Source: Runella sp. CRIBMP (lineage in GTDB: Bacteria > Bacteroidota > Bacteroidia > Cytophagales > Spirosomataceae). Taken from it: DNA of 64,000 bases. Below, in pieces: positions 13,104 to 34,586 of this stretch. Both the position numbers and the translations under genes were made by a program. The stretch spans positions 1-64,000 of the forward strand of contig NZ_JAAAKZ010000022.1 in assembly GCF_009905605.1 (NCBI RefSeq). The letters run 5' to 3'. Numbering within the stretch: position 1 is the first letter of the stretch; every line of letters starts with the position of its first letter. The notes under the pieces are model-generated. The model saw only the letters and a program-made list of their open reading frames with translations. It did no database searches and was not told where the DNA came from.

Positions 13104-13553
13104 ATGAAAACACAACTAATAACCACAACTGAAAACTGGGGAGCAACAGCGATTCGTTTTGCTCTGGGAATTGTTCTCTTCTCACATGGTGCCCAGAGTA
13201 TGCTCGGTTGGTTTGGTGGTTTTGGATTACAATCCACCATCGAATTTCTTTCTGCCAATATGGGATTACCTGCGCTCATTGGGTATGCAGTAATCTGCAT
13301 TCAATTCTTTGGATCATTGATGCTAGTGACAGGACTACTGACCCGAGTTGCCGCATTAGGTGTTTTCGGAATCTTCATTGGAATGGCCACCTATCATTTC
13401 GATTATGGATTTTACATGAACTGGTCGGGCACAAATGCTGGTGAAGGCTTTGAATATCACATACTTGTGTTAGCCATGTGCGTAATGCTTTTCATTTCAG
13501 GAGGTGGAGCACTTTCGGTAGATTACAAAATATTGAAAAGCCATCCATTATGA
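13104..13553 (+). CDS. DoxX-family membrane protein
   Basis: This 149-aa protein has four predicted membrane helices and the DoxX features RFALGIVLFSHGAQ at the first helix and GYAVICIQFFGSLMLVTGLL in the second. DoxX proteins are small inner-membrane proteins linked in some systems to redox stress or quinone-dependent thiol/thiosulfate oxidation; the reaction here is unknown. Pairing with a flavodoxin-like reductase in one operon fits a quinone or stress role. The stop overlaps the next start as ATGA at 13550-13553, suggesting translational coupling. Confidence 0.85.
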   Translation: MKTQLITTTENWGATAIRFALGIVLFSHGAQSMLGWFGGFGLQSTIEFLSANMGLPALIGYAVICIQFFGSLMLVTGLLTRVAALGVFGIFIGMATYHFDYGFYMNWSGTNAGEGFEYHILVLAMCVMLFISGGGALSVDYKILKSHPL

Positions 13554-15980: not shown

Positions 15981-16013
15981 GAAAGCCCCAAATCAATGTT
16001 TTGAGGCTTTTTA
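15981..16013. terminator. Terminator of the 16-34.6 kb operon
   Basis: AAAGCCCCAAA and TTTTGAGGCTTT form a stem with one mismatch around a short loop, with a run of T (plus strand) and the complementary run on the other side. It lies 15 bases past the stop of the last gene of the long minus-strand operon. Confidence 0.6.
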
Positions 16014-16027
16014 CCTTTAGAGCAGAT

Positions 16028-17509
16028 TTAAAGTTTGATATTAAATATATCATAAAGTGCCTGTTTTGCGGCGTGATAACCGCACATCCCGTGAACTCCT
16101 CCTCCGGGAGGGGTAGAAGAGGAACAGATATATAACCCCTTTGTGGAGCTGCGATACGGAGACCACCTCAATGCCGGCCGTGTAAAGAGTTGGTCGAGGG
16201 TTAAAGCACCGCCGTTAATATCTCCCCCGATATAATTGGGGTTGTATTCTTCCATTTGGGCCGTATTGAGCGTATGTCTTGCCAAAATTCGCTCTCTAAA
16301 ACCTGGCGCAAAACGTTCAATTTGCCTTTCTATGGTGTTTGTCATGTCTTTAGTGGAACCGTTTGGGACGTGGCAATAACCCCACAACACATGTTTGTCT
16401 TTTGGAGCACGGGTAGCATCAAAAAGACTTTGTTGGGCTAGCAAAACAAAAGGTTTTTCAGCATGGGAGCCATTCCAAACCGATTGCTCGGCGGCGGCTA
16501 TTTCCTGAAAAGTATTTCCGAGGTGCAACGTACCAGCAGCCCTAGCTGCTTCGGAGCGAAACGGAACGGGGCCATCCAATGCCCAATCAACCTTAAAAAC
16601 GCCCATCCCATAACGGTATTTTTCAAGCTGCCATTTATAAATAGCCGAAAACTGATGTCCAGCAATTTTGAGTAACTGTCGCGGTGTAATGTCGAATAAA
16701 ATTGTTTGGGCGGAAGGCAGTTGCGAAAGTGATTGAACGTAAAAATCTGTTTCAATTTTGCCCCCAATTGACGTAAAATACGAAGCTAAGGCATTGCTGA
16801 TTTGCTGAGAGCCTCCCTTAGGAATGGGCCACCCTTGCACATGCCCAGCGGTCAGTAAGATCAAACCGATGGCGGAAGTAGTCAAGTGACTGAGGGGTAA
16901 AATCGAATGCGCCGCCATCCCGGCCCACAGCCCTTGCGCGGCTGGGGTTTTGAACTTTTTAACCAACCAAGAAGCTGGCGCTAAGGCATTAAGGCCGAAT
17001 TGAGCAAAACTAATCGGGTTTTCGGGAAAGCGCAAAGGACCTAAAATGCCCGAAATAAGGGACGTCCAGTGTTTTTTAATGGGGTATATCAAGGATAGGT
17101 ACTTTGCCTCGTCTATTCCCAATAATGAAGCTGTTTTGTCAATGGATTGGGCAAGTACCGCCGCGGTTCCATCGTCAAATGGGTGGGCTGCCGCAATGGG
17201 AGAATAAAGATATTCCAAGCCATGTTTCTCTAATGGTAAAGTGCTAAAAAAAGGAGAGGCCACCGCCATAGGATGAATAGCTGAGCAAATATCATGTTTA
17301 AAGCCTGGCAGGGTTAATTCTGCCGTTCGTAAGCCACCTCCAATCGTAGATTTTCCTTCTACCAGCAAAACCTGTAGCCCTGCTTGTTGCATAGTAATGG
17401 CCGCGGATAGCCCGTTTGGGCCAGAACCAACCACAACAGCATCAAAATCATAGCTTTTTGCCCCCCGAAAGGAGGGCTGGGTTGTAATAAATGGTTGGTT
17501 ATTTTTCAA
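16028..17509 (-). CDS. FAD-dependent oxidoreductase, phytoene-desaturase-like
   Basis: This 493-aa protein has the dinucleotide-binding motif GSGPNG at 28-33, an acidic residue after the second strand (VEGKSTIGGGLRT, about 50-62) and a C-terminal FAD-binding stretch STPPGGGVHGMCGYHAA (about 466-482). These define the COG1233 family, which includes CrtI and retinol-saturase-like enzymes. Neighbours give no carotenoid pathway, so the substrate is unknown. It is the last gene of the long minus-strand run, 47 bases after soxC, with a terminator immediately downstream. It has no signal peptide and is probably cytosolic or membrane-associated. Confidence 0.8.
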   Translation of the reverse strand: MKNNQPFITTQPSFRGAKSYDFDAVVVGSGPNGLSAAITMQQAGLQVLLVEGKSTIGGGLRTAELTLPGFKHDICSAIHPMAVASPFFSTLPLEKHGLEYLYSPIAAAHPFDDGTAAVLAQSIDKTASLLGIDEAKYLSLIYPIKKHWTSLISGILGPLRFPENPISFAQFGLNALAPASWLVKKFKTPAAQGLWAGMAAHSILPLSHLTTSAIGLILLTAGHVQGWPIPKGGSQQISNALASYFTSIGGKIETDFYVQSLSQLPSAQTILFDITPRQLLKIAGHQFSAIYKWQLEKYRYGMGVFKVDWALDGPVPFRSEAARAAGTLHLGNTFQEIAAAEQSVWNGSHAEKPFVLLAQQSLFDATRAPKDKHVLWGYCHVPNGSTKDMTNTIERQIERFAPGFRERILARHTLNTAQMEEYNPNYIGGDINGGALTLDQLFTRPALRWSPYRSSTKGLYICSSSTPPGGGVHGMCGYHAAKQALYDIFNIKL

Positions 17510-17556
17510 TGGGTTAAAATTGGGATTTCAGTTTTGCTTATTAAAAGGGAACATTT

Positions 17557-18795
17557 TTATTTTTCTGGTTTGAACAGCACCGCACCGTCGCGCTTGATTT
17601 GCCAAGCCGTAATGGGATTGAAATGATAACCGCCCGACTCGCCACGTGCTTCCACCAGTTGCTTCAGCGTGGGTTGGGTATAACCCGTTTCGTCGGTGAC
17701 GCGACTCATGATCTCGGTTTCATCGCCTTTCCATTGCCACAAATACCGAAAAGCAGTATGCGCTTTGTCCAGGATCGGGTCCTGAAGGGCTGCCAGGTGC
17801 CACGACTTACCTGCATCAGTGCTGACTTCCACCCGCACTACTTTTCCGCGCCCGCTCCAGGCAATGCCCCGAATCTCAATCCAGCCTTTTTCTACGCTTT
17901 GGGGGTACGAAGGAAAGGTGATGATGGAGCGTGCGTCCATGTCAAAACTGAACTGCCGTACTCTGCCGTTGACACTTTCGGTGTATTTGGAGGTTTCTTC
18001 GCGGGTCATGAACGGCTGATCGGAAAGCTCCAGTCGACGCAGCCATTTGACGCTCGTGTTTCCTTCCCAGCCCGGCAAAAACAACCGCAGCGGATAGCCC
18101 TGCTCGGGACGGAGGGCTTCGCCGTTTTGAGCGTAGGCCAAAATAGCATCGTCCCAACCTTTTTTGACGGGAATGCTGCGGGTCATGACGGCAGCATCGC
18201 CTCCTTCGGCCAGAAACCACGTAGCGTTGGGTTTGATGCCCGCTTCCCGGAAGATCGTGGAGAGTTTCACACCCGTCCATTCACTTTGGCTGGTCAAGCC
18301 GCACACATCCTGCGGACGGAGAGTTTCTTTGCCCGAACGGAAATTGCCCGAACATTCCAAAAAAGCAATTCGTGACACCGACGGAAAACGCTTTAGGTCA
18401 GCCACTTTGAAAATGAGGGGTTTTTCCACTAACCCATGAATTAGCAATTCGTGTTTGGCGGGATCAATGGCAGGTACGCCGCCGTGGTTACGTTCAAAAT
18501 GCAGATCGGAAGGGGTGATCATTCCGTAAATATCCTGCAACGGCGACCGCGAAGAGGTGGCAGAGGGGTCTTTGAGCAATTTTTCAAACGGCGACCGGGT
18601 GCCCAGCTCTCCGGGCGGTACCCCTGGGACTTTGGTGGGGTCATCGTCCAACGCTGACTGCGGAATGCCTTTTTGGAGGGTATGTCCGTGCGCATTTTGA
18701 ACAAGGGCGACGGCGACCGTGGCCGCTCCGCCGAGGAGTTTACGCCGCGAGAGTTTCTCCGTAAACTGACTGAGTTGAATGAGGGTGTTTTTCAT
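17557..18795 (-). CDS. soxC: Sulfite dehydrogenase molybdopterin subunit, SoxC-like
   Basis: This 412-aa protein begins with a twin-arginine signal (SRRKLLGGAATVAVALV, residues 16-32), so it is exported folded to the periplasm. The sulfite-oxidase fold is shown by the Cys ligand of the molybdenum in FLECSGN (about 152-158), by EWTGVKLSTI, and by GYPLRLFLPGWEGNTSVKWL (about 246-265). The C-terminal dimerisation domain (about 295-400) has VEVSTDAGKSW. SoxC acts with a cytochrome c subunit, and the next gene upstream encodes a c-type cytochrome overlapping by four bases. The pair should oxidise sulfite, or a related sulfur species, and pass electrons to the respiratory chain. The usual SoxXYZAB genes are absent. 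Confidence 0.88.
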   Translation of the reverse strand: MKNTLIQLSQFTEKLSRRKLLGGAATVAVALVQNAHGHTLQKGIPQSALDDDPTKVPGVPPGELGTRSPFEKLLKDPSATSSRSPLQDIYGMITPSDLHFERNHGGVPAIDPAKHELLIHGLVEKPLIFKVADLKRFPSVSRIAFLECSGNFRSGKETLRPQDVCGLTSQSEWTGVKLSTIFREAGIKPNATWFLAEGGDAAVMTRSIPVKKGWDDAILAYAQNGEALRPEQGYPLRLFLPGWEGNTSVKWLRRLELSDQPFMTREETSKYTESVNGRVRQFSFDMDARSIITFPSYPQSVEKGWIEIRGIAWSGRGKVVRVEVSTDAGKSWHLAALQDPILDKAHTAFRYLWQWKGDETEIMSRVTDETGYTQPTLKQLVEARGESGGYHFNPITAWQIKRDGAVLFKPEK

Positions 18796-19421
18796 TTTAC
18801 TTCCGGTCCTCCTTTCCGGTCGTCGGGAACGAACAGTTTTTGTGCGGGCATGATGACTTTGGGAAGCGATTTGGCATCAATCACGGTTTTTTCGTCGATG
18901 AGTTTGTTAGCGCTCAACAGATAAGCCGTCAAATGGTAAACCTCTTCATTGGTCAGTGAGCCAGGTTGGTTGAACGGCATAGCCCGGCGTATGTAGTCAA
19001 ACACCGTGGTGGCGTAGGGCCAATAATTGCCGATGGTTTTTTCGGCCCGCTTTTCTTTATCGCCAGCGGCAGTTGTGGTCACCAGTGAGCCATTCGGCCC
19101 GCCGATGCCGCCTGCTCCGTGACAGGCCACGCATTTGCTATCAAAAATGATTTTGCCCTTGGTGGCAAGACCAGAACCCGCCGGCAAGCCTTTGCCATCG
19201 GGACGGATGTCAATGTCTAATCGGTCAATTTCGGCCTTTGTGGCCGGACGCCCGAAACCGAAAGAGGCGGGGTGTTGCGTGGTATCAGAAATCGCCAAAT
19301 ACTGGTTTGGGGCTTGAAAATCGTCGTTTCCGGTATACAAAACTCCCAATACCGAAAACAGTATCGGGAGTTGAACATACAACTTTAAGCTTAGGGCAAA
19401 AGGTCTTTGCATTGGAATCAA
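18792..19421 (-). CDS. SoxD-like cytochrome c
   Basis: This 209-aa protein has an N-terminal membrane or signal segment (about 12-30), then a linker, and one CVACH haem site at 97-101. The distal ligand is probably the Met in RRAMPFNQPG (about 155-164). The region matches the monohaem cytochrome partner of SoxC-type sulfite dehydrogenases. Its stop overlaps the soxC start by four bases, supporting a functional pair. Located in the periplasm, it should accept electrons from SoxC. It is shorter than proteobacterial SoxD, which has two haems, so this is the one-haem form. Confidence 0.82.
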   Translation of the reverse strand: MIPMQRPFALSLKLYVQLPILFSVLGVLYTGNDDFQAPNQYLAISDTTQHPASFGFGRPATKAEIDRLDIDIRPDGKGLPAGSGLATKGKIIFDSKCVACHGAGGIGGPNGSLVTTTAAGDKEKRAEKTIGNYWPYATTVFDYIRRAMPFNQPGSLTNEEVYHLTAYLLSANKLIDEKTVIDAKSLPKVIMPAQKLFVPDDRKGGPEVK

Positions 19422-19487
19422 TGGGGGTTATTCGTTCAATTTGTCAATGAATGGGTAAGTTAAAACAAATTGAGAAAAAAAGCGCGA

Positions 19488-20369
19488 TCAATGGTCTCCG
19501 TGGTATTTTTCTCCTGCCTTGACGGCCAATGCCAACGTGTTTTCTTTGGTCGGAAGCGGGCAGGTGGCGTAAGGTGTGAAGGCACACGGCGGATTGTACG
19601 CTTTGTTGAAATCAATGTACGTATAGCCCTCAGCGTCAGGAGCGGGGGCGTCGAGAAAACGTCCGCCGCCGTACGAGCCGTGTTTATTGGTCAAGTCGCC
19701 AAACACGAAATGCGGACGCTCTTTGGAGCCGACGGCGTCGAGGCTGTACTCTTTGCCGCCGAAGGTGAAGACAAACTTACCGGGCGATTCCTGCTCGTAC
19801 GTGCGCCCCGTGATATCGGTAATGCTCAGTTTTTTCCCAACCGTCGGAATGAACTTTGCCTTTACGCGCCAATCCTGACTGATGGGAAACGTTTCGATTC
19901 CCTTAATTCCTTTCAGGTACGGCCCTTCCAGATCACGCAGACGAATGGCGTATTTGTCGCCCCGCTGAATGATGAACCAGCGCAGGGTTTTGTGTTTCAA
20001 CACGGTAGGTTTGCCCTGATACGGAAAAAGTTCGGCGGCGGTTACGGGTTGGTCGCCCAACGCGACCGACGCGTCTTTGGCAGCTTCAAAGGTTACTTTG
20101 CCATTTTTTAAAATGACCTTTCCCAAAAAAGCATCGCTGTGATCTTCGGGAAATACAATGCTGTTTTTGGCATTACCGCCAATGGTATTTTCGCCCTCCT
20201 GCAACCAGAACAAACCCGCCAGATTGAGCCAGCCTTCTTCTTTTTTAAGGTCGTCGATGCGTTTTTGATGCCAGGTTTTGATCTCTGCTTCGTAGGAGGT
20301 CTCTACCGTAAAAGCCAACAGGAAGACCGACAAAAACAGTACTGCTGCGTGTGTTGCGTACTTTTTCAT
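19488..20369 (-). CDS. Secreted DUF1684 protein
   Basis: This 293-aa protein has a signal peptide (residues 1-23) and then the family's typical opening WHQKRIDDLKKEEGWLNLAG with FWLQEGENTIG. The C-terminus has the conserved HGSYGGGRFLDAP, YTYIDFNKAYNPPCAFTPY and TCPLPTKENTL. DUF1684 members are widespread secreted proteins without assigned function. It lies 66 bases upstream of the SoxD-like gene and 77 after the TPR gene in the same run, which links it to the sulfite-dehydrogenase module by context only. Confidence 0.85.
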   Translation of the reverse strand: MKKYATHAAVLFLSVFLLAFTVETSYEAEIKTWHQKRIDDLKKEEGWLNLAGLFWLQEGENTIGGNAKNSIVFPEDHSDAFLGKVILKNGKVTFEAAKDASVALGDQPVTAAELFPYQGKPTVLKHKTLRWFIIQRGDKYAIRLRDLEGPYLKGIKGIETFPISQDWRVKAKFIPTVGKKLSITDITGRTYEQESPGKFVFTFGGKEYSLDAVGSKERPHFVFGDLTNKHGSYGGGRFLDAPAPDAEGYTYIDFNKAYNPPCAFTPYATCPLPTKENTLALAVKAGEKYHGDH

Positions 20370-20446
20370 GATGAATGAATTTTGAGTGAAAAATGAGAGA
20401 TAATAGATGGATATTGTTAAAAATCAGCGGTTAATAATTGGGTTTG

Positions 20447-22180
20447 CTAAAGCGGGAACAGGCCTTTGTCGCCAAATTTGGATACTTCTGCCAGTTGGGC
20501 GGCATATTCGTTGGCTTTGGCACGGTCTCCTTTTTGTTTGTATACCCTGTACAATCCCCAGTAGGCGTTGGCGGTATGGGGATAGCGTTCCAACAGTTGT
20601 TCGTAGGCCTTTACGGCTTTGTCGTATTGGCCCGCTTTAAGGTGGGCTTCGGCCAAACTGATCAGCACCGGACGCGCGTACGACGGCGGCTCACTGTAAC
20701 CGAGTTCAACTTCCTTGGTCTTGGCTTTTTCGAGGAGGGCTACGGCTTCCGGGTAGTTGTTTTCGGCGCTTTTGATGACCCCCTGCAATTCCAGCGACGC
20801 CACGTTCAGGTCGTTGATGCGACGGGTGGCAATGATCTCTTTGGCGGAGCCCTGATTTTCGTTGCGCCAGAGCAGCGCGTCGAGGGCATTGACGAAGCGC
20901 TTGGCGTCGTCGATGCGGCCGTTTTTGACGGCCTGCATGCCCGACGCGAAGTAAAACAGCGCATCTTTGTACGCGATGGCTTTGCCGGTAAAGAGGCTGT
21001 CTTTGTCCAATCGAATGGCGGCCAATCGGTCAGCGGCTTTTTGGTAAAACCCAAAACAAAGCTCCATTTTGGCGGGCGCGATCACCCCCTGATAGAAGAA
21101 ACGGCCTTCGTATTTGCGTTTCCGTTCTTTCGTGGCAGGCATATTTTGCAGCTTTTCCGCGTAATACAGGGCCGTTTGATACCGACCGTTTTCGGCGCAG
21201 TTGGAGAGCAGGTAATTAATGTTGTGGATATAGTTCCAGGCATCGACCTCGGGAATATTTTGTTGCTTCATGTAAATTGAATCCACCTTTACGGCCGCTA
21301 CAAACGCATCGTGCGCTTTTTTGTATTCGCCCAATTTGTAATACACGTGGCCCGGCATGTGAACCATGTGCCCCGAATTGGGGGCGAGTTTTGGTAGTTT
21401 TTCAGAACTTTCGAGGGCCTGTTCCGGACAGCAGTTTTCTTTTAAATGGATCCAATAATGATGGGCCGCCGCGTTGTTGGGATGCTCGCGGAGCAGGTCT
21501 TTCAGCAAGTATTCGGAGTAGAGTTGCCCTTCGCGGGGGTTGAGTTTGGCATCGTAGCCACCCATTTTGCTCAAGGCCAAAAACAGCTTGGCATCTACAT
21601 CCTGCGGGTATTTGTGGATGATGAGTTCCAGCTTTTTCTGATACGCCGCTTTCCCGCCTTCAGCGTCGCCGTCACGTAGTAAAATGGCTTCGGCGTATAG
21701 TTTTTCGCGTTCCGTGGCGTTGTCTTTCAGGGCTTTCAGCTTACGGAGGGCCAGTTTTTGGTCGTTCTTAAACTCATCTCCTTCAATAGCCCCAATGGCG
21801 CTGTACAATCCGTAATAGGGCATAATCGCCGCAGAATCGTGCCGAATGGCTTCTTTGAAGGCGCGGTACGCCTCAAAATCCCAGAAACAGTGCAGCAACT
21901 GAATACCCTGATTAAAAAAAGCCTGCGTTTTGGCCGATTGGGTCGAGATGGGAAAATTCGCGGAACCAATACCGGTCAGCAGTTGCGGTACGGGCAGGTT
22001 ATGCACAAACACCGTTTCCTTGCGGTATTCCTGAATGTGATTCAGATGGTCGTGGCCGGACCTATCGTGGGCTTCCTGCCGGTGGCCATCGTGCGCCGGT
22101 TCCTGCGGCTCACTCTGCCGAACCCGCTGCGCCGTGGCGCTGAAGGCGAGTAAACAAAAAAGAAAGATGCGAAAGACCAT
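20447..22180 (-). CDS. Secreted tetratricopeptide-repeat protein
   Basis: The start at 22180 gives 577 aa with the signal peptide MVFRIFLFCLLAFSATAQ; the 16 upstream residues in the open frame lack signal character. The mature protein begins with a His-rich linker (about 20-50) and continues as a helical repeat protein. Clear TPR units include the block HMPGHVYYKLGEYKKAHDAF (about 272-291) and the last two repeats near 515-570 (AYEQLLERYPHTANAYWGLY). The pattern CFWDFEAYRAFKEAIRHD near the N-terminus is typical of a family often found with periplasmic oxidoreductases. Role unknown; it may scaffold or handle the substrate of the operon. Confidence 0.78.
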   Translation of the reverse strand: MVFRIFLFCLLAFSATAQRVRQSEPQEPAHDGHRQEAHDRSGHDHLNHIQEYRKETVFVHNLPVPQLLTGIGSANFPISTQSAKTQAFFNQGIQLLHCFWDFEAYRAFKEAIRHDSAAIMPYYGLYSAIGAIEGDEFKNDQKLALRKLKALKDNATEREKLYAEAILLRDGDAEGGKAAYQKKLELIIHKYPQDVDAKLFLALSKMGGYDAKLNPREGQLYSEYLLKDLLREHPNNAAAHHYWIHLKENCCPEQALESSEKLPKLAPNSGHMVHMPGHVYYKLGEYKKAHDAFVAAVKVDSIYMKQQNIPEVDAWNYIHNINYLLSNCAENGRYQTALYYAEKLQNMPATKERKRKYEGRFFYQGVIAPAKMELCFGFYQKAADRLAAIRLDKDSLFTGKAIAYKDALFYFASGMQAVKNGRIDDAKRFVNALDALLWRNENQGSAKEIIATRRINDLNVASLELQGVIKSAENNYPEAVALLEKAKTKEVELGYSEPPSYARPVLISLAEAHLKAGQYDKAVKAYEQLLERYPHTANAYWGLYRVYKQKGDRAKANEYAAQLAEVSKFGDKGLFPL

Positions 22181-22264
22181 AGAATGAAAAGAATCAATGT
22201 GTTGGGTGGAATGACCGGCAGCATGCATTGTTCATGCCGCCGGTAACGTCGGGTTTTTGTGGAA

Positions 22265-23725
22265 TCAGTCCAGTAATTTTTTGTTGGTAACGATCTCTAC
22301 GTTGGGCAATGGCAAAATGTAATTCACGTCCGTAGGTTTCACTTCCGGAGCGCTCAGGGCACTGCTCGCTTTAGCAGGCAGGGGCAACAGATTGCGCAGC
22401 AGGTCGTTGGAGCGGAAGCCTTCGCCCAACAGCTCGATTCGACGCTCTTTCAAAATGGTATTGACCAGGGCCGTGGGTGTTTCGAGGGCGCTTGCGGGGA
22501 ATACATAGGCGGCATCGGAGCGATTCCGAACGGCCTTCAGCAACTCCGTGGCTTTGGCGACATCGCCCGTGCGGGCGGCAGCTTCGGCGTAGTTGAGCAG
22601 CACTTCCGAATATCTGATAATGGGGAGATAGTCCAAAAACGGCGAAGGTTTGTTGTATTTGGTCAAAAACTGAACGCCCGAAGCGGTTCGCGCAAACGTG
22701 CGCCGCAAGTCAGTGGATTTCCATTCGGTATCGCCCCAGATTCCCGTTGGGTTCAGGTTGTATTCTGAATTGGCATTGTACACGTACGGAAAAGAAGATT
22801 GTCCGCCGACGTTGTCCAATTCCGTCATCGGTACCGACAGGATCGACTCGGTGCTGGTGTAGTTGGTGGTGAAAATTTCCACGATGTTTTGCAGCTTATG
22901 CGCTACTCCCGACGAAGCGGCAAAAGGTGCTCCCGTCGACACGATCTTTTTCGCTTCCTCGATCACTTTGGCGTAGTTGCCGCTGTTGAGGTACACACGG
23001 GTTTTGAGCGCAATGGCGGTGTTGCGGTGCGCACGGGTGGTATTCAGCAGGGCAGAAGCGTAATTGAGCGGAAGGTCTGCTTCGGCTTCGTCGAGGTCTT
23101 TGATGATCTGAGCGTATACCTCGGCCACGGTGCTGCGTTTGAGGTCATTGTTGGCGGTGTTGGTTTCGGCCTGCAACCGCAGCGGTAAACCTGGCGAAGT
23201 GCCCTTGTTTTCGTTGTAGGGACGGGCGTAGAGCGTTACCAAACTGTAATAACTCAATGCCCGCAGAAACTTGGCTTCGGCGATGTACTGCTTGGTCAGC
23301 GCGGCACTTACCTTGGTGGGATTGTCGGTCAGACCTTTGATGAGAATGTTGGCATTATTGATGGACGTGTACGCCGCCGACCAAAACCCAGCCACAAAGT
23401 TGGAGCCTGAATTTAAGGTTTGGTTCCACGCCTCAAAGGCCGTGAAGGTATTGCTGGTGCGGTTGATGAATTCTTCCCCCCGGGCTTCGGTGTAGATGTA
23501 ATAATTGCCGCCGTAAAAGTTTCCGCTTTTGACGGATTTATAGATTCCGTTGACCAATCCCAAAATACGATCGGGGGTGTCGAACGCATTGGCTCCGCTG
23601 ATGGAAGTTTCGGGGGCAGGGTTCAATAATGTTTGGTCGTCGCAGCTTGAGATGGTGAGCAATAGCCCCACGCACAAAGCGCCGGGGATACGACGAACGG
23701 TTGGATATGTGTGTACTCTTTTCAT
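22265..23725 (-). CDS. SusD/RagB-family nutrient-binding lipoprotein
   Basis: This 486-aa protein has a lipoprotein signal with lipobox near LLTISSC. The SusD fold is indicated by the N-terminal part (NAFDTPDRILGLVNGIYKSV), the helix AEAKFLRALSYYSLVTLYA, and the C-terminal block RYSEVLLNYAEAAARTGD followed by KERRIELLGEGFR. SusD proteins sit on the cell surface as a lid on SusC and bind the substrate. Its partner SusC is encoded 39 bases upstream. The ligand is not predictable from sequence. It is the second of two such pairs in this operon. Confidence 0.93.
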   Translation of the reverse strand: MKRVHTYPTVRRIPGALCVGLLLTISSCDDQTLLNPAPETSISGANAFDTPDRILGLVNGIYKSVKSGNFYGGNYYIYTEARGEEFINRTSNTFTAFEAWNQTLNSGSNFVAGFWSAAYTSINNANILIKGLTDNPTKVSAALTKQYIAEAKFLRALSYYSLVTLYARPYNENKGTSPGLPLRLQAETNTANNDLKRSTVAEVYAQIIKDLDEAEADLPLNYASALLNTTRAHRNTAIALKTRVYLNSGNYAKVIEEAKKIVSTGAPFAASSGVAHKLQNIVEIFTTNYTSTESILSVPMTELDNVGGQSSFPYVYNANSEYNLNPTGIWGDTEWKSTDLRRTFARTASGVQFLTKYNKPSPFLDYLPIIRYSEVLLNYAEAAARTGDVAKATELLKAVRNRSDAAYVFPASALETPTALVNTILKERRIELLGEGFRSNDLLRNLLPLPAKASSALSAPEVKPTDVNYILPLPNVEIVTNKKLLD

Positions 23726-23764
23726 ACGCTTGATTTCGTTATACGTTCTGATAATGGCTTATGA

Positions 23765-26941: not shown

Positions 26942-27047
26942 ACGTATTTCATTAATAACTAATATGTATTTTGTGGTAAGTAATGGTCTGCTTTCCAAAC
27001 ATTGACGTCCGGAAAGCAGGGGTATTTATAGAAGTTGTTGAAGTGCA

Positions 27048-28736
27048 TCAATCGTATTTTCCGGCTTCGAGCGTACTTCTCGACAAGGCATATTTTTTGT
27101 TGTAGCGGTCAAGCACTACCCTAATGGAGTCTTTGTTTTCGTTGATGCCCGACAGAATCACCCGCGCACCGCCGTTCAGCACTTCATAGTTCAGCACCAT
27201 GCGGTGACGTTTGGCGGGGCGGGATTCCGCCTGAATTCCCTTGGTGCGTCGTGTAGAACGGGCAATGGATTCGATCTTAGGGTCTTCTGGCCCGATGATG
27301 GCCAGGACTTCTTTCGGAATCCAGTTGTCTTCTTTGGGCTTTTCGCCTTTCTTTTTAGCGGCGGCATTTGTGCGCCCGTCGCCGCCAAAATCGGTTCGGT
27401 TGCCCAGGAACTCACGCCCTTCCTGACGGTTTCCGCGATTTTTATCCTGCAGGTACAGGGTCTTATGGACTGTATCTGCTTCGTAATAGAAGACGCGCTG
27501 CCCCCCAGCGACTCCAGTCAGCTCAAATGTGCGGTTGATGTCGCGCATAGGAGCGCCGCCGCCGTTCGAGAGGTCCAGTTCCACGGGCTTATTAACTTTG
27601 AATGTAAGCGTAGTCCATTTTTCAAACGTGGCCTGCTGCCAGCGAACCGTATCCAAGGGCGAGTACGGAATGACCTGATTGTTTAACTTAAATTCGGTCA
27701 CGTTATAATTGCCGCGCAGTTCGGGGATACCTTTGAGCGCCGGCTGTTTGTAGGGATCGTACAGGAAATTAACCACCGCCAAATACGTAAATACGGGCAA
27801 AAAAATGATAATGGTCGCGGTTTTGAGGGTAATGCGCGTCACGCGCTGCCAAGCCTCCGAAAACACTGGATAGTAGGTATTTGGGAAGGTATATTTTTCC
27901 AAAATCAGCAGATTGTAGAGTTTGGGAATATAATCCACCAACAAAAAAGCCGAAAACAACACAAAATAGGAACTGTACACGTGCACACCGCCGTCGTAGG
28001 CGAAATTGACGTACACAATGTCGGCCAAGGCACCAAAAAGTAGAATTGCCCCCCAAAATGTAGTAGCGCGGAAGAATAAAAATGCTCCTGCCAATACTTC
28101 CACTACTCCTGTAAATACTTCATACCAAGGCACAATGCCGATGGAAAGCCAATAGATTTTTTGCAGGGTCAGGTCACCGAAATTGGTATTCAGAATCCCC
28201 CACGAAGGATACGGAAGCTGCGTAGGGGTCAATTTGGTAAACCCAAATCCGATGATGCCGATGCCCGCCCGGTAGCGCACGATGACCTTTAGCCAGTAAT
28301 ACAGCAGGTTATACTCGGCTCTTTCCTTTTGACGATAGATCGCAATCCCAGTCCAAATGAAGCCTAGCACGGTGGCAAAGATCAGGGTGATGATCCATAC
28401 GGCATAGCCGTTGAGATTGCTGCCGAAAAGGGTGTTACCGAAAAAATTCAGGCCAGAGCCAAAACGCGCTACATCGTATAGGTCGCGGTAATGTAGGTGA
28501 AGCCAATCAAAAGTCAAAACCTCTTTGTACCAGTCCAAGTTATTGGGCAGCGACATGCTGACAAAAAACACGAACGCAATTCGGAACAGCACCTTTTGCC
28601 AGGGTTTCCATTCGGAAACAGTACTTGGTTCGAGGTATTGGGGGAAAGGTTCGGCCGATGAGGAAGTTGTCGCGGAGGAAGGCGCACTCATTCCTAAATC
28701 CAGTCGTTCAGAAGTAATTTTCAATGTCTTAGCCAT
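27048..28736 (-). CDS. DoxX-like membrane protein with long extramembrane tail (copy A)
   Basis: This 562-aa protein has a cytosolic N-terminus of about 45 residues and seven or eight membrane helices up to about residue 325. They include RAGIGIIGFGFTKL, VVEVLAGAFLFFRAT and GAILLFGALADIVYVNFAYDGG, which resemble DoxX/DoxD-type helices. A soluble tail of about 230 residues follows, with a beta-rich part (about 345-450) and a basic, low-complexity insertion (about 445-500, Lys/Pro-rich) absent from copy B. Copy B is encoded 27 bases upstream. DoxD/DoxA form thiosulfate:quinone oxidoreductase in Acidianus, so a sulfur-linked redox role is plausible beside soxC, but this is inference. Confidence 0.7.
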   Translation of the reverse strand: MAKTLKITSERLDLGMSAPSSATTSSSAEPFPQYLEPSTVSEWKPWQKVLFRIAFVFFVSMSLPNNLDWYKEVLTFDWLHLHYRDLYDVARFGSGLNFFGNTLFGSNLNGYAVWIITLIFATVLGFIWTGIAIYRQKERAEYNLLYYWLKVIVRYRAGIGIIGFGFTKLTPTQLPYPSWGILNTNFGDLTLQKIYWLSIGIVPWYEVFTGVVEVLAGAFLFFRATTFWGAILLFGALADIVYVNFAYDGGVHVYSSYFVLFSAFLLVDYIPKLYNLLILEKYTFPNTYYPVFSEAWQRVTRITLKTATIIIFLPVFTYLAVVNFLYDPYKQPALKGIPELRGNYNVTEFKLNNQVIPYSPLDTVRWQQATFEKWTTLTFKVNKPVELDLSNGGGAPMRDINRTFELTGVAGGQRVFYYEADTVHKTLYLQDKNRGNRQEGREFLGNRTDFGGDGRTNAAAKKKGEKPKEDNWIPKEVLAIIGPEDPKIESIARSTRRTKGIQAESRPAKRHRMVLNYEVLNGGARVILSGINENKDSIRVVLDRYNKKYALSRSTLEAGKYD

Positions 28737-28763
28737 TGTTTGAAAAGATTTTAAACGTAGAGA

Positions 28764-30107
28764 TTAGAGTTTCAGACCGCGCCGACGCCCTGTTTTTTGA
28801 GCTTCAAACATCAGGTATTTTTTGTTGATTTTCTTCAGGACCGCCGTCAAAGAATCTTGGCGCTCATTGACTCCCTTCAGCACGATGGTAGAGTCGTTGG
28901 GCTGTGAAAAGTGCAGCGTCAGGGTTTCGTTTGCGTGGTTTTTGTTGCGATTTTTGAGGTGTAGCACCTGCTTTTTAGTATCCACTTCGTAGCTATAATA
29001 ATGCCGCCCCTGCGAGCCCGCGTATTCATAATCACGGTCTTCATCGTTCCGGTGGATTTCTTCAGTGGTGGTCACCTCCAAAATCACCGGACGATTGGAC
29101 TTGATGCTGACAGTATTCCATTTTTCAAATACCACATCTTGCCAGCGATTAGCATCCGTTTTAGAGTAGGGTAAAATGGTATCGTTTAATTTGAATTCAC
29201 TTACGTTATAAAGGCCTTCGGTTTTGGGCAATCCTGCTTTTTGCGGAAATTGATAAGGACCTTGGCGGTATCCCGCGTAGGTTTTATATCCATACAATGC
29301 CACGAAAAAAAATATAAAGGCGGTTTTGAGCGCTAAGCGAGCTTTTTGCCCTTTCTCTGAAAAAACAGGCTTGAAATGTGCAGGGGCGGTGGCTTGTTCT
29401 AGGGAGAATAAATTGAACAACCGCAGGCCGTCGTATGCAAAAAGAAATAGGGCTAGGGTGATCAGATAAAAACTGTAAACGTATTCGCCACCTTCATAGG
29501 CGATGTTAGAAACAAACACATTACCCGTAAACGGAATGATGATTAACGTCCCGATGGTGGTGGTTTTGCGATTGAGCAGTAGTAGACCGCCAATGATTTC
29601 GACCAAGCCGAGAAAGGATTGGGAATTTGGAACGACCCCCAAACCCAACGAAAACAGCTTCCAAGCCGTGAAATCTCCGTAATTAGTATTCAAATTACTG
29701 ATAGAAGGCAACGGTGCCTGTAATGGAAACAACTTGATAAATCCATAAGCAATAACGCCAATGGCCAACCGATACCTAACGAGCACCCGAACCCAGTAGT
29801 ACAGGCGGTCGTAATCGGTTTTTGAGGTATCGCGAAGCGACCAAATCACCGCGCCTATGCCCGCCAATGCTGCCACAATGAGCCAATTGAGAAAAGTATC
29901 CGCCCCAGCAAATGAGGGGGAGTACCGTGACAAATAAAATATGTCACGGTAACTGATACTAAACCAATTTATTGTTCCCAAATTTTTAAAGAATCGAGCA
30001 TCCAGCGGCAACACCTGAATGAAAAAGTACAGCGCAAAAAACCGGAAGACCGCCTTTTCCGTATTCGACCACGTCGAATCCAAAATGATTTTATTCCTGT
30101 TGGTCAT
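28764..30107 (-). CDS. DoxX-like membrane protein with extramembrane tail (copy B)
   Basis: This 447-aa paralogue of copy A shares segments such as YRAGIGIIGFGF versus YRLAIGVIAYGFIKLFP, and NTNFGDLTLQKIYWLSIGIVP versus NTNYGDFTAWKLFSLGLGVVP. It also shares the tail motif YNVTEFKLNNQVIPYSP versus YNVSEFKLNDTILPYSK. It has about seven membrane helices and a shorter soluble tail (about 300-447) without the Lys/Pro insertion. The two genes probably arose by tandem duplication and may form a heteromer. It lies between the SusCD pair at 30179-34586 and copy A. Confidence 0.7.
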   Translation of the reverse strand: MTNRNKIILDSTWSNTEKAVFRFFALYFFIQVLPLDARFFKNLGTINWFSISYRDIFYLSRYSPSFAGADTFLNWLIVAALAGIGAVIWSLRDTSKTDYDRLYYWVRVLVRYRLAIGVIAYGFIKLFPLQAPLPSISNLNTNYGDFTAWKLFSLGLGVVPNSQSFLGLVEIIGGLLLLNRKTTTIGTLIIIPFTGNVFVSNIAYEGGEYVYSFYLITLALFLFAYDGLRLFNLFSLEQATAPAHFKPVFSEKGQKARLALKTAFIFFFVALYGYKTYAGYRQGPYQFPQKAGLPKTEGLYNVSEFKLNDTILPYSKTDANRWQDVVFEKWNTVSIKSNRPVILEVTTTEEIHRNDEDRDYEYAGSQGRHYYSYEVDTKKQVLHLKNRNKNHANETLTLHFSQPNDSTIVLKGVNERQDSLTAVLKKINKKYLMFEAQKTGRRRGLKL

Positions 30108-30178
30108 CTTTGTAAAAATGTTGAGTATGAAAGGATAGACCTGGATAGTTTTCGAAACTTTCCAAATGTTTAAAGTCT

Positions 30179-31522
30179 TTAATAACCAGGGTTTTGAGTC
30201 AATGCTTTGTCCGATAAAAGTTGCTGTACCGGAATGGGTAACAGCAGGCGATTTGCGTCCGTAACACCGAAGACGGCTGCTGCCCGACCCGTACGAACAA
30301 TGTCAAACCACCGGTGCGGCTCCAGTGCAAACTCAATACGACGCTCATTCTCAATGGCCAACAGCAATTCATCTTTAGTAGCAGCGGCACTTGCTACCAC
30401 ACCAGCACGATCACGAACGGCATTCAAATCCGCCAGCCCTACGGTCAGTTTGTCCTGTTGCGCCCTGGCTTCCGCCCTAATCAGGTACAGTTCTGCTGCC
30501 CTAAGAATATAAGAAGGGTCTGAAGCCGGGTTGCGGTAATACAGATTTCCGTACCAGCGGTTTTGGTTGTCTTTGGCCACCAACGAGCTGCGCGTTCCGC
30601 CCACGGCGGGGTTATTGAGCAGCGTGACCAGTGCGTCGTTGGGTGCCCACTGACGCGTACCGCCGTTGGTCTGGGGTTGCCATTGTCCTCGGTGACCGTT
30701 TACTTCGGTGGTACCGTTGTAGAAAATTTCAAAGACGGATTCGGCAGTGCCTCGGGCGTCGTTGGCAAAAAACGCGCTGAATGGCTTTAATAGTCGGTAA
30801 TTAGTTGCGTCGGTAATCACCTTGTCGGCATATTCTTCTGCTTTTACCCATTCTTTTTGGTACAAATGATAGCGTGCACGGAGTGCCCACACGGTTTTGC
30901 GCGTAGCACGGTAGCGATCGGTCGTGGCGGGAAGAAGCGGCTCGGCGGCCTCCAGATCTTTCAACACCTGCGCGTAGGTTTCGGCCTGACTGCTGCGGGC
31001 GATGCCCACATTATCGGTAGGGTTAACGGTGGGCTTGGTGATCAGCGGTACGCCGCCCCACGTGCGGGCCAAATCAAAATAGGCCAACGCACGGATGAAA
31101 TACGCCTCGCCAATGTACTGATTTTTCAGCGCCTGTGTGAGTTGCGGATCCGTGACAGTCGCCACTTTTTCAATAACATTGTTGGCGCGGTTAATGGTCC
31201 GATAAATCGCAATCCATGCTCCGCTGATGGTGGAGTTATCAGCATTTACTCTTTTATTGATAAACTCCTGCACCTGCGATTGGGAGCCAGTCCAAACAAT
31301 ATTGTCGCCTGAAAGATAGCCTATCGACTGAAAACTTGTCCCATAATAGCCCCCATCGGCCAAGGCACTATACACACCTCTGATGGCTGTTTCGGCAGAG
31401 GTTCGATCTACGATGGTTACCACGTCAGAAATGGATTCTTTGGGCTTTACGTCCAGAAAGGAATCACAGCTTACCAGTACTGTTATCAATGACACTGACA
31501 GAATATATTTTGTTACTTTCAT
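30179..31522 (-). CDS. SusD/RagB-family lipoprotein
   Basis: The start at 31522 (MKVTKYILSVSLITVLVSC) gives 447 aa with a lipobox LVSC; the 45 codons upstream in the open frame lack signal character and overlap the end of the SusC gene. SusD features are GEAYFIRALAYFDLARTWGG, TETYAQ-like QAETYAQVLKDLEAAEPLLP and, near the C-terminus, YILRAAELYLIRAEARAQ with ENERRIEFALEPHRWFD. It should sit on the outer face with the SusC encoded 28 bases upstream. The ligand is unknown. Confidence 0.93.
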   Translation of the reverse strand: MKVTKYILSVSLITVLVSCDSFLDVKPKESISDVVTIVDRTSAETAIRGVYSALADGGYYGTSFQSIGYLSGDNIVWTGSQSQVQEFINKRVNADNSTISGAWIAIYRTINRANNVIEKVATVTDPQLTQALKNQYIGEAYFIRALAYFDLARTWGGVPLITKPTVNPTDNVGIARSSQAETYAQVLKDLEAAEPLLPATTDRYRATRKTVWALRARYHLYQKEWVKAEEYADKVITDATNYRLLKPFSAFFANDARGTAESVFEIFYNGTTEVNGHRGQWQPQTNGGTRQWAPNDALVTLLNNPAVGGTRSSLVAKDNQNRWYGNLYYRNPASDPSYILRAAELYLIRAEARAQQDKLTVGLADLNAVRDRAGVVASAAATKDELLLAIENERRIEFALEPHRWFDIVRTGRAAAVFGVTDANRLLLPIPVQQLLSDKALTQNPGY

Positions 31523-31550
31523 TGCTTTAATGAATTTGTACATAACTGAA

Positions 31551-34500
31551 TTACAAAGAGATATTGACTCCAACTTGTACACCCAATGGCTGCGGAGGGG
31601 TTCCCAAATCAATTCCCTGCTGGTTTTGGTCACTACTCGCGCTCGACTCTGGGTCAAGCCCCGTGTATTTGGTCAATAAAAAAAGGTTGGTTCCTGCCAC
31701 ATACACCCGTAGGGATTCCGCACCGATTTTCCGGGTCACGGCCTTGGGAAGGGTGTAACCGATATTGAGCGAGCGCAGGCGCAGGAAAGAGCCGTCTTCC
31801 AACCAGCGGCTGCCACCATCGCGATAGTTGTTGACGTTGACACCGTCGGGTCGAGGCGTATCGGTGATGTCGCCAGGTTTTTGCCAGCGGTCGTTGTTGC
31901 TCGCCAGAATCACCCGGGCAGCATCGCGGGCACCACCACCTTCACCGAAGAAGCGGTTGTGGTTATATATTTCGTTGCCGTATTGGAAAGAGAAAAAGAA
32001 ATTGACGTCAAAGCCTTTGTAAGACAGGTTGTTGGTCAGTCCACCGAAGAGTTTGGGCCAAATACTACCCACAATCTGACGGTCGGCTACCGTAATTTGT
32101 CCGTCTTTGTTGACATCATCATAGATCACATTACCCGTTTCCGGATTAACGCCCAGTTCTTTGTACACCCAAAACGAATACATCGGTGTGCCTTCCTGAA
32201 GCAGGATCAGATCACGACTTCCGTAGCGCAGCGGGTTGGGGAGTTTCTCAATGTTGTTGACATTTTGCGCTATGTTTAGACTGGTGGTCCAGTTGAAATA
32301 GCCTTTGCGTACATTGACGGTATTGAGCACAAATTCAAAGCCTTTGTTACTGATCTCGGCGGCGTTTGACCAGTAGCCGCTGAAACCAGTGGCGGCGGGC
32401 AATGCCAATTGTAACAGGCCGTTGGAAGTGTATTTGTTGTAATAATTCAGTTCAAACGATACGCGAGAATTCAGTATGGATGCATCCAGCCCAACGTTAA
32501 ACTGACGGGTGCGTTCCCATTGCAGGTCTGAGTTGCCGAGTTGTTGCGGAGCAATACCTGCACTTCCCTGATACGAGGCTCCGCCCGTCCAAAGGCCCTG
32601 AGAGGCAAAATTCCCGATGCCGTTTTGGTTTCCAGTGATACCGACACTGCTTCTGATCTTGAGGTCGTTCAGCCATTGGACATCCCGCAGAAAGGATTCC
32701 TGTTTGGCGCGCCAGGCCAGACCGACCGACGGGAAGTAGCCCCATTGGCGGTTGTTGCCGAAACGGGACGAACCGTCGGCGCGCAGGCTGAAATCGATCA
32801 GGTATTTGCTCGCAAAACTGTAATCCACTTTTCCGAAAAATGACGCCAGATTGCTCTTGGTCCAGCTTTGAGAGCCGGCCGTGGTGGCGGCGGATGATAT
32901 CTGCGTAAACTGATTATTGGCAAAACCTCTTCCTTCGGCGTAGGTGCGGGTTTGCAGGTCGCTTTGCAGGGTGTTTCCGATCAATACCCCAAACGAGTGC
33001 TGCGTGCCGATTTTCTTCCGGTAGGTCAGCGTTTGCTCATTCAGCCAAGTCGTAAACTGCGTGATGGACGAGGTTGCCAATCCGTTGGGGCTTCCCGAAA
33101 TCAGCAGATTGTTCCAGTATTCTGATTCGTTGTAATTGTTATAATCAATCCCCCAACTGCTTCTGAATTTAAGATTAGGCAACAGTTCGGCATCGGCGTA
33201 GAGGTTTCCGATGTAGCGCAGACTGGTAGAATTGACGTTATAATTATCTAATAAAAGTGTCAGGTTATCAAAGCCAGCACGGCCAACCAACACACCCTGC
33301 TCATTGACGGGAGATAAATACGTAGGGGTGTGCAGAGCAGCTTGCAACAATCCCCCCGCAGGGCCGTCGCCAGCGCGGGCCTGATTGCGGTAGGTGCGGG
33401 TAAAGCTGTTGCTCACACCCACCTGAATTTTATCGTTGACCTTCTGGTCTAAATTGACCTTGAAGCTGGCGCGTTGGAATTTGATGGGTTTGATGATCGC
33501 TTCCTGGTTGTTGAACCCGCCACCGATGTAGTATTTGGTGGTTTTAGTTCCTCCTGCGAGAGATAAATCATAGTTTGAAAGGCTGGATGTGCGGAATAGT
33601 TCGCCTAAGCGGTCGTAGGTCTGCTGCTCTTCTGACAGTCCGCGGCCACCTTCGGAGACAGGCCGAAAGGGGCGGTTGACAAAGGTCCGGTTCAACGAAG
33701 GCGTATCTTTGCCCGTGTTGATCCACCATTCATTGACCAGCTGCGCGTGCTCGGGCCCCGTGGTCAGCTCCCAGAGTTTGGTGGCTTTGGCCTGTCCGTA
33801 GGAAGCATTGAAACTAACCTTTGGTTTTTGCTCAAAACTGCCCCGCTTGGTAGTAATCAAAATGACCCCGTTGGCTCCGCGTGAGCCATAAAGCGCGGTC
33901 GCTTCAGCATCTTTAAGGACTTCAATACTTTCAATATCGTTGGGATTCAGGTCGGCAATAGGGGACGTGGCTTTTCCGCCAGTACCGATGGTTTGCAGAC
34001 TGTTGTTGTTGATAAAAACGCCGTCTACGACGTACAGCGGGTCATTGTCGGCGTTGATGGAAGTAGCGCCCCTTACCCTGATATTAATTGCTTCGCCAGG
34101 CACTCCCGTATTGGAGGAGATTTGAACGCCCGAGACTTTACCTTGTAATTGTGCATCAAAACTGCCCGCCTGAATGGTTTTAGTGTCGCTTGGGTCAATC
34201 TTGGCAATTGAACCAATCAGGTTTTTACGTTCGAGGGAGCCATAACCGACGACAACGACTTCCGAAAGCTGTTTAGAATCAGGATTTAGGGCAATTTCGA
34301 CGGTATTAGACTCAACGATTGTTTCTTTTGGTTCATATCCGATGAAGCTTACTACGAGTATGAAAGGAAGTTTTTGGCCCGTTTTTAGGAAAAACTGCCC
34401 TTCTACGTCTGTAGTCCCGCCGTTGGTGGTTCCTTTGATGAGGACTGCGGCCCCAATGAGTGGCTCTCTTGTTTTAGCATCAATGATTTTACCCGTTAGG

Positions 34501-34586
34501 GTCGCGTTGATGACTGGGTTATTTTGCGATTGGGATAGGATGGGAAACCAAATAACTAAACCCCACAGGAGTAGTTTTTTTTTCAT
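31551..34586 (-). CDS. SusC/RagA-family TonB-dependent transporter
   Basis: This 1011-aa protein starts with a signal peptide (MKKKLLLWGLVIWFPILSQS), then a regulatory beta-sandwich (about 28-105), a plug with VVVVGYGSLERKNLIGSIAK and ATALYGSRGANGVILITTKRG, and a barrel. It is the first gene of the long minus-strand run, so its upstream region (34587-34840), containing a GC-rich inverted repeat, probably holds the operon promoter. It is clearly different from the second SusC in the operon, so the two pairs may take up different ligands or different forms of one ligand. Confidence 0.94.
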   Translation of the reverse strand: MKKKLLLWGLVIWFPILSQSQNNPVINATLTGKIIDAKTREPLIGAAVLIKGTTNGGTTDVEGQFFLKTGQKLPFILVVSFIGYEPKETIVESNTVEIALNPDSKQLSEVVVVGYGSLERKNLIGSIAKIDPSDTKTIQAGSFDAQLQGKVSGVQISSNTGVPGEAINIRVRGATSINADNDPLYVVDGVFINNNSLQTIGTGGKATSPIADLNPNDIESIEVLKDAEATALYGSRGANGVILITTKRGSFEQKPKVSFNASYGQAKATKLWELTTGPEHAQLVNEWWINTGKDTPSLNRTFVNRPFRPVSEGGRGLSEEQQTYDRLGELFRTSSLSNYDLSLAGGTKTTKYYIGGGFNNQEAIIKPIKFQRASFKVNLDQKVNDKIQVGVSNSFTRTYRNQARAGDGPAGGLLQAALHTPTYLSPVNEQGVLVGRAGFDNLTLLLDNYNVNSTSLRYIGNLYADAELLPNLKFRSSWGIDYNNYNESEYWNNLLISGSPNGLATSSITQFTTWLNEQTLTYRKKIGTQHSFGVLIGNTLQSDLQTRTYAEGRGFANNQFTQISSAATTAGSQSWTKSNLASFFGKVDYSFASKYLIDFSLRADGSSRFGNNRQWGYFPSVGLAWRAKQESFLRDVQWLNDLKIRSSVGITGNQNGIGNFASQGLWTGGASYQGSAGIAPQQLGNSDLQWERTRQFNVGLDASILNSRVSFELNYYNKYTSNGLLQLALPAATGFSGYWSNAAEISNKGFEFVLNTVNVRKGYFNWTTSLNIAQNVNNIEKLPNPLRYGSRDLILLQEGTPMYSFWVYKELGVNPETGNVIYDDVNKDGQITVADRQIVGSIWPKLFGGLTNNLSYKGFDVNFFFSFQYGNEIYNHNRFFGEGGGARDAARVILASNNDRWQKPGDITDTPRPDGVNVNNYRDGGSRWLEDGSFLRLRSLNIGYTLPKAVTRKIGAESLRVYVAGTNLFLLTKYTGLDPESSASSDQNQQGIDLGTPPQPLGVQVGVNISL

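Follow-up and report, generated by a model that had tools for sequence, protein, structure and literature searches.

A Runella operon combining SusCD importers, DoxX-like proteins and a SoxC-type enzyme as a candidate organosulfur-use locus of Bacteroidota

Many soil and freshwater Bacteroidota encode dozens of SusCD import pairs per genome, most of them without a known ligand. In the window analysed here, a 64,000-nucleotide stretch of the Runella sp. CRIBMP genome (contig NZ_JAAAKZ010000022.1, positions 1 to 64,000), two such pairs share an operon with two DoxX-like proteins, DoxB and DoxA (together DoxBA), and with a SoxC-type molybdenum sulfite dehydrogenase. What could these importers deliver to a sulfite-oxidising enzyme? 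The question matters beyond this locus: a backend implying a sulfur-containing ligand would yield a testable ligand class for SusCD pairs, the bacteria concerned would, if the reading is true, join the organosulfur cycle, and DoxB-DoxA, which lack a direct match to a curated family, would gain a defined context.

We propose, at a probability slightly below one half (about 0.47), that the operon is a Bacteroidota organosulfur-use locus, in which organosulfur compounds would be taken up by TonB-dependent transport, their sulfur would end as sulfite and SoxC would convert this to sulfate in the periplasm. SusC1-SusD1 would carry a sulfur-containing organic ligand across the outer membrane, a step that we consider likely but infer from context. 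DoxB and DoxA may act on the ligand or pass it on at the inner membrane, and its sulfur would be freed as sulfite by DoxBA, by an FAD-dependent oxidoreductase (FADox) or by other enzymes. Periplasmic SoxC would then oxidise what is presumably sulfite to sulfate, with its electrons passing to the adjacent monohaem cytochrome c and on to the respiratory chain. SusC2-SusD2-TPR-DUF1684 would form a second, interchangeable import cassette feeding the same backend, and some relatives would have a third, SusC3-SusD3-amidohydrolase-sulfonate-monooxygenase-like enzyme-amino-acid permease, here called module III. The combination of organosulfur feeding via SusCD with a sulfite oxidiser and DoxBA apparently constitutes an undescribed route; no title or abstract describing a SusCD-SoxC or SusCD-DoxX locus was found among the open-licence papers that the searches listed. 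The proposal is built on gene content, conservation, linkage, the family and active-site letters of SoxC, and modularity, all of which are read directly from sequence.

An eleven-gene operon with a conserved four-gene core

The operon comprises eleven consecutive open reading frames (ORFs) on the minus strand (16028-34586), and both the ORF list and family profile searches bear out the gene order given in a preliminary description of this DNA. It begins with SusC1 (31551-34586), a TonB-linked outer membrane transporter (TIGR04056, 831 bits; cut-off 368), and the lipoprotein SusD1 (30179-31522; PF14322 and PF07980 above cut-off). The longest SusD1 ORF extends to 31657; the start is most likely the ATG at 31522 rather than the TTG overlapping SusC1. 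DoxB (28764-30107; 447 residues) and its homologue DoxA (27048-28736; 562 residues, with an insert before the last strands) come next. They are followed by an optional cassette consisting of SusC2 (23765-26998; TIGR04056, 809 bits against the same cut-off; probable start at the ATG near 26941), SusD2 (22265-23725; Pfam SusD families above cut-off), a TPR protein (20447-22228; TPR families) and a DUF1684 protein (19488-20369; PF07920, 134 bits, cut-off 25), whose solved relatives 2lnu and 2lok are both uncharacterised. The last three genes encode a monohaem c-type cytochrome (18792-19421; PF00034, 43.8 bits), which is the presumed electron acceptor of SoxC, then SoxC itself (17557-18795; TIGR04555, 478.8 bits, cut-off 420) and FADox (16028-17509), a CrtO/phytoene-desaturase-like protein matching NAD_binding_8 and FAD families, with NCBIfam matches below cut-off.

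The largest intergenic gap in the operon is 77 bases, or 106 if SusC2 starts at the ATG near 26941 (the longest-ORF overlap of SusC1 and SusD1 aside). A four-base overlap occurs in one gene pair only, cytochrome c/SoxC (18792-18795), and not in two. The terminator reported after the last gene did not hold up either: the 11-bp hairpin at that place (15982-16010, minus strand) lacks a U-run, folds no better than chance (24 and 32 of 200 shuffles fold equally well for the two stretches folded) and was not listed by a consensus terminator scan. The same scan gave no minus-strand terminator-like site between the operon genes, which is compatible with a single transcript while not proving one. Sigma-70-type promoter and terminator scans returned chance numbers only, and a Bacteroidetes-type promoter pattern was found 3 times against 4.1 expected, with none upstream of SusC1. 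The guanine-plus-cytosine content of the operon genes is 45-55%, compared with 43.8% for the window.

SusC and SusD genes are adjacent by profile search, and in this, in the TonB link and in the operon-like arrangement the locus resembles SusCD loci for polysaccharide or peptide use. Unlike glycan loci, it has redox enzymes in place of a glycosidase or sulfatase; profile searches found no glycosidase, lyase or sulfatase among the eleven products. This counts against regarding the locus as an ordinary glycan or nutrient SusCD locus in which SoxC is a neighbour without common function.

Two collections were used, a panel of 149 genomes including the window's own, 91 of them from the window's family, and a search through named genomes of bacteria and archaea in which 227 DoxB loci were confirmed. 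Figures for the latter cover the best 80 loci, which were recruited via DoxB (so that DoxB is present by construction) with flanks of 8-10 kb on each side; gene labels in example loci are best phmmer matches to the window proteins. The titles of these 80 loci name genera and orders that we take to be Bacteroidota. DoxA was found in all 80, SusC1 (at least 800 bits) in 76, the cytochrome gene (cytC) in 65, SoxC in 61, FADox in 55, a YeiH-family gene in 40 and an S51 peptidase in 30. All 70 loci with full flanks contain SusC1-SusD1-DoxB-DoxA. This quartet is the core, and SoxC is its frequent, not obligatory, partner. Genera with the DoxBA core include Runella and Spirosoma as well as Pedobacter, Mucilaginibacter, Chitinophaga and Hymenobacter. 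While SusC1-SusD1-DoxB-DoxA-cytC-SoxC-FADox is the common order in relatives, the position of cytC-SoxC varies: it may follow DoxA, follow YeiH, lie upstream of SusC1 (seven loci, all Chitinophaga) or be divergent from SusC1 (loci L104, L117 and L139). That the neighbours are kept while their order shifts argues for a common function.

DoxB scoring at least 444 bits is present in 34 of the 149 genomes, and TIGR04555 exceeds its cut-off in 30; additionally, genome G081 has a copy in two pieces. In the locus of G081 (L052), SusD1, DoxA, SoxC and FADox are all fragmented, which may reflect assembly errors or decay. Tabulated together, DoxB and SoxC co-occur in 30 genomes, DoxB is alone in 4 (G016, G030, G055, G078), SoxC is alone in 1 (G054) and neither is present in 114; within the window's family the corresponding counts are 28, 4, 1 and 58. 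Fisher's p values of 5e-26 for the panel and 4e-18 for the family are too small, since shared ancestry is ignored. The table counts DoxB matches of at least 429 bits plus one of 329, and seven YeiH matches below 30 bits and one LLM fragment were excluded from the co-occurrence counts. The distance from SoxC to DoxB is at most 15 kb in 27 of 31 cases and at most 40 kb in 29; the other two are G002, where SoxC is on a 3.5-kb draft contig, and G054. Large distances in G013 and G075 arise because module III intervenes.

The association of SusCD, the DoxX pair and SoxC that the preliminary description had drawn from one operon recurs in several Bacteroidota families and survives rearrangement; DUF1684, which it proposed to include in a co-occurrence search, is optional. 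For the ordinary-nutrient explanation it can be said that loci with SusC1-SusD1-DoxB-DoxA and no SoxC exist, and that SusCD pairs are very common (76 first-look SusD-like candidates in the window genome, of which 10 were scored). Persistence of the linkage through at least four gene orders and several families, and the near confinement of above-cut-off SoxC to DoxB genomes, make that explanation quite unlikely. A Hymenobacter volaticus plasmid (L161:9296-17073) carries SusCD, with SusC annotated in two pieces, then DoxB and a DoxA-sized protein, with no SoxC annotated in the stretch viewed.

SoxC as a probable sulfite oxidiser

The best solved relative of the window SoxC is 2xts, which we take to be Paracoccus SoxCD (351 bits), ahead of SorA 2blf at 132 bits. 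Its residues R102, H104, C148 and R153 are invariant in 23 aligned sequences; R102 and H104 align with SorA R55 and H57, and the C-x-G-N-x-R of Bacteroidota SoxC matches C104-S-G-N-S-R109 of SorA. In SorA these four, R55, H57, C104 and R109, are presumably the molybdenum-ligand cysteine and the substrate-site arginines and histidine of sulfite oxidases. The active-site loop reads E-C-[SA]-G-N-[FY]-R in all 77 distinct SoxC sequences longer than 350 residues from Bacteroidota loci (drawn from locus sets L037-L076 and L077-L156, which share some genomes). The comparison with Sox-cluster enzymes covers two such sequences and 2xts, all of which have E-C-A-A-N-[GS]-G instead. A simple pattern search found a twin-arginine-like start in 66 of the 77 homologues. 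In a tree of 44 rows, with six long branches flagged, the window SoxC falls inside a Bacteroidota clade, the tree leaving its sister SoxC undecided.

The partner cytochrome has a single CXXCH in each of the 93 loci counted, among which some genomes figure twice, and the window protein has no match to the SoxD profile, so that 'SoxD-like', as it had been called, is a loose label. SoxY (PF13501) was found in none of the 149 genomes with a model that did find it in a Paracoccus control record; SoxZ, SoxA, SoxX and SoxB were not searched. Taken together, the SorA-like loop and the absence of SoxY suggest that the SoxC substrate is sulfite rather than protein-bound sulfane sulfur, and SoxC probably oxidises sulfite. 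The preliminary description's identification of SoxC as a sulfite oxidiser is thus consistent with the family match and the active-site letters, while a Sox-type thiosulfate pathway finds no support.

The same results bear on inorganic sulfur oxidation, in which DoxBA would act as thiosulfate:quinone oxidoreductase and SoxC as sulfane dehydrogenase. The locus shares the SoxC family with the Sox system (SoxXYZABCD), SoxC is closer to 2xts than to SorA, and DoxB is of the DoxX superfamily. The operon differs from the Sox system in its lack of SoxY, its active-site loop and its monohaem partner; moreover, the operon's DoxX-like proteins have no match to the DoxD or DoxA Pfam families at E<=10, and thiosulfate requires no SusCD. 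We consider this alternative very improbable, and Sox- or DoxDA-type thiosulfate oxidation was rejected as the function of the locus on the grounds of SoxY, the loop and the missing DoxD/DoxA match.

A parallel is provided by the free-standing SoxC-cytochrome c of sulfonate-degrading Proteobacteria, in which SoxC likewise has an adjacent small cytochrome c and lies outside a sox cluster. Of 458 plasmid records with a SoxC match, 15 from outside Bacteroidota were inspected; 1 was unannotated, 2 were sox clusters and 12 were others. Sulfonate- or taurine-type genes lie near the free-standing soxC-cytochrome pair in 4 of the 12 annotated contexts, namely Methylobacterium NMS14P, Caballeronia, Methylosinus (a PhnD/SsuA-type binding protein) and Pseudomonas (TauD/TfdA-type dioxygenases); no clear sulfonate gene was present within the stretch viewed in the other 8. 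A methanesulfonate locus described from Filomicrobium encodes a SoxC-SoxD pair together with a sulfite exporter (PMC4433239). The proteobacterial systems differ from the Runella-type loci in that the importers seen are ABC-type, whereas Runella-type loci have SusCD and DoxBA; SoxC identity to the non-Bacteroidota plasmid matches listed is at most 59%, and the active-site arginine differs.

The window genome encodes a second sulfite-dehydrogenase-like pair, a SorA-like enzyme (253 bits; SorA cut-off 600) followed by a small cytochrome (L158:8748-10517). In relatives, 7 of the 44 genes of the YeiH family have such a SorA-like gene within 5 kb, as do 6 of the 36 LLM genes, indicating that the two sulfite-enzyme lineages have common neighbours.

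Importers and the source of sulfite

If SoxC oxidises sulfite, which gene could release it? Candidates come from some relatives. Genomes G001, G004 and G013 have, in a same-strand run, module III before or after cytC-SoxC, the run holding an M19 dipeptidase, a LigB-type dioxygenase, SusC3, SusD3, an amidohydrolase, an alkanesulfonate-monooxygenase-like LLM enzyme and an amino-acid permease. G075 has a matching arrangement, save for 2.6 kb outside the sequence viewed, and G006 and G036 likewise contain SusC3-SusD3-amidohydrolase-LLM-permease. A Spirosoma oryzicola plasmid has module III beside cytC-SoxC, with no DoxBA in the 41 kb viewed. A more distant DoxB-like protein (255 bits; L071:9657-10988) lies inside module III of G013, and likewise in G075 (L072). 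The LLM enzyme scores 424 bits to 7olf and 420 to 7oh2, structures whose deposited names are methanesulfonate sulfonatase and alkanesulfonate monooxygenase; its scores to 7jv3 and 1m41 are 204 and 183 bits. Both 7olf and 7oh2 are probably sulfoquinovose monooxygenases, and 7jv3 is probably MsuD. The enzyme is thus similar to the FMNH2-dependent sulfonate monooxygenases SsuD, MsuD and sulfo-ASMO; it falls below their NCBIfam cut-offs (249 against 518 for the SsuD equivalog) and is absent from the window genome. At E<=1e-30 it was detected in 30 of the 149 genomes, 14 of the 34 with DoxB and 16 of the 115 others.

Further genes of some relatives' clusters, the M19 dipeptidase, an M28 peptidase, the amino-acid permease and a methionine aminotransferase, would also suit another explanation, that SusCD import peptides which peptidases cut, SoxC merely disposing of sulfite from cysteine or methionine breakdown. 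In favour of this explanation is the S51 cyanophycinase-like peptidase found in 30 of the 80 loci and tied to its own SusC1 subtype. It leaves DoxBA unexplained, however, and the window operon contains no such peptidase, permease or aminotransferase gene. Across the 80 named loci neither M19 nor methionine aminotransferase was found, and none of the 34 DoxB genomes has a cysteine dioxygenase (4 hits among the 149, all in other families). We regard the peptide explanation as doubtful.

The importers themselves vary. The window and some relatives have SusC2-SusD2-TPR-DUF1684 inside the operon; in other relatives it is separate, the TPR gene usually travelling with the other three. A SusD2 orthologue above 800 bits is present in 16 of 149 genomes, of which 15 have DoxB and 12 have it within 25 kb of DoxB; the rest are G006 (126 kb off), G028 and G048 (another contig) and G063 (no DoxB). 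In a close relative, G003, whose DoxB is 91% identical, a 44-codon ORF between DoxA and cytC (L037:8665-8799) starts as SusC2 and ends as DUF1684, fused in frame. The simplest reading of this apparent deletion scar is that G003 once had the cassette and lost it by deletion at a short shared stretch (A-G-E codons), in which case the core does not depend on the cassette for its persistence, nor would the cassette be a recent insertion in the window. SusC1 also comes in types: of 23 loci in which the S51 peptidase stands between SusD1 and DoxB, 22 have a SusC1 score of 970-1208 bits (the other is a fragment, 293), as against 1250-2134 bits in 52 of 55 loci without an intervening S51 (the remaining three have 1137, 281 and 263); a further two loci could not be assessed. 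In L111, L152 and L156 an S51-linked SusCD pair (SusC 929-953 bits) precedes a second SusC ahead of one DoxBA. Differing importers on one backend fit a family of related ligands.

Several findings weigh against organosulfur use as we propose it. SoxC is absent from 4 of the 34 DoxB genomes and was not seen in 11 of the 80 loci. (Nineteen loci lack SoxC and eight were set aside: L077 and L123 are short contigs, and in L082, L088, L090, L126, L132 and L140 the cassette pushes the expected SoxC to or past the end of the stretch.) Loci without SoxC, or keeping only the SusCD part, had been named in the preliminary description as refuting its reading, and with the optional SusC2-SusD2-TPR-DUF1684 they exist in part. 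Conversely, G054 has SoxC-cytC beside Hsp70 and a methyltransferase, without a strong DoxB. The aligned non-Bacteroidota free-standing SoxC have C-x-G-N without the arginine even near sulfonate genes, so the arginine is no obligatory signature. The window genome already has a SorA-like enzyme with its small cytochrome, and the S51 peptidase suits the peptide explanation. None of the 80 named loci contains the LLM sulfonate-monooxygenase-like enzyme in the flanks viewed; the sulfonate link accordingly depends on certain genomes from the window's family plus a single plasmid, and for this reason our estimate is not higher. The window genome itself has no match to this enzyme at E<=1e-30 (it has one other LLM protein), no TauD, no Xsc over cut-off, no cysteine dioxygenase and no YeiH (PF03601) gene. 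YeiH-family genes were detected in 46 of 149 genomes at E<=0.001, and their genome-level co-occurrence with DoxB is weak (p 0.03, too small because of shared ancestry).

One common sulfite source for all loci was sought among TauD, Xsc, cysteine dioxygenase and the module III monooxygenase, and none explains the window genome; SuyAB, CuyA, isethionate and further routes were not searched. This missing source is both the main weakness of the organosulfur proposal and its main point of interest. What remains of the original idea of organosulfur import followed by periplasmic sulfur oxidation is the linkage, the identity of SoxC and the organosulfur genes in the same clusters of some relatives; the monooxygenase is absent from the window genome, and the DoxX-to-quinone and Sox-type thiosulfate parts find no support.

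DoxB, DoxA and neighbouring genes

Could DoxBA supply the missing step? DoxA and DoxB are homologous over their whole length (profile-profile 100%, E 1e-114), and neither has a credible direct Pfam or NCBIfam match. An AlphaFold2 model of DoxB (predicted local distance difference test, pLDDT, 88) has seven long helices, the half presumed to be embedded in the membrane, followed by a C-terminal lipocalin-like barrel; Foldseek matches concern the barrel part only and are weak, none reaching E<=0.001. The DoxA model (pLDDT 67) was too weak for a structure search. DoxB residues 107-242 match a four-protein DoxX-type profile (hhalign 97.2%, E 3.1e-11), three of whose members were chosen from weak DoxB matches, the fourth being a DoxX protein; one of the three, the bridge protein L167, exceeds the Pfam DoxX cut-off of 23.6 with a score of 25.4 bits. 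Through these intermediates homology of the helical core can be traced, and we assign DoxB to the DoxX superfamily by sequence comparison.

This kinship extends to the DoxDA thiosulfate:quinone oxidoreductase only in so far as the helical half of DoxB matches the DoxX-type profile. Unlike DoxDA, the Runella proteins lack a DoxD/DoxA family match, have the C-terminal barrel and are two tandem paralogues, so that the electron transfer to quinone that had been suggested by analogy is unsupported beyond the wide DoxX superfamily. No column of the DoxA or DoxB alignment has cysteine in half of the sequences, which counts against thiol chemistry by DoxBA. DoxBA, perhaps with FADox, might be a new membrane-bound sulfur-releasing system that frees sulfite from a SusCD-delivered ligand at the envelope; we think this unlikely, and it concerns genomes without the known sulfite-releasing enzymes that were sought.

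The flanks of the operon lend themselves to one more explanation, an envelope stress or redox system in which the task of DoxBA, FADox and SoxC would be to repair or detoxify reactive sulfur species, SusCD providing a cofactor. An ORF matching solely the C-terminal domain of Fe/Mn superoxide dismutase (35627-36082) and, on the operon strand, a ChrA-type transporter with a ChrB-AraC fusion (36949-39009) adjoin the operon upstream. Sulfite is toxic, and in Salmonella YeiH is reported to be chiefly responsible for sulfite resistance, a yeiH mutant being highly sulfite-sensitive (PMC12880088). Up to three SusCD pairs in some clusters nevertheless suggest bulk uptake, and the genome already has the SorA-like pair; a stress system is, to our mind, improbable.

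Given that role of YeiH, the YeiH-family genes in 40 of the 80 loci also speak for the organosulfur proposal. One YeiH gene of the DoxB loci matches PF03601 with E 2e-50 and stays below the YeiH subfamily cut-off (95 against 232.6). ChrA/ChrB families also occur near the DoxB loci L062, L069, L070, L078 and L149, and may act as a substitute oxyanion transporter where YeiH is missing. On the other side of the operon, about 2.5 kb past its 3' end and on the other strand, a small DoxX protein (13104-13553) exceeds the Pfam cut-off.

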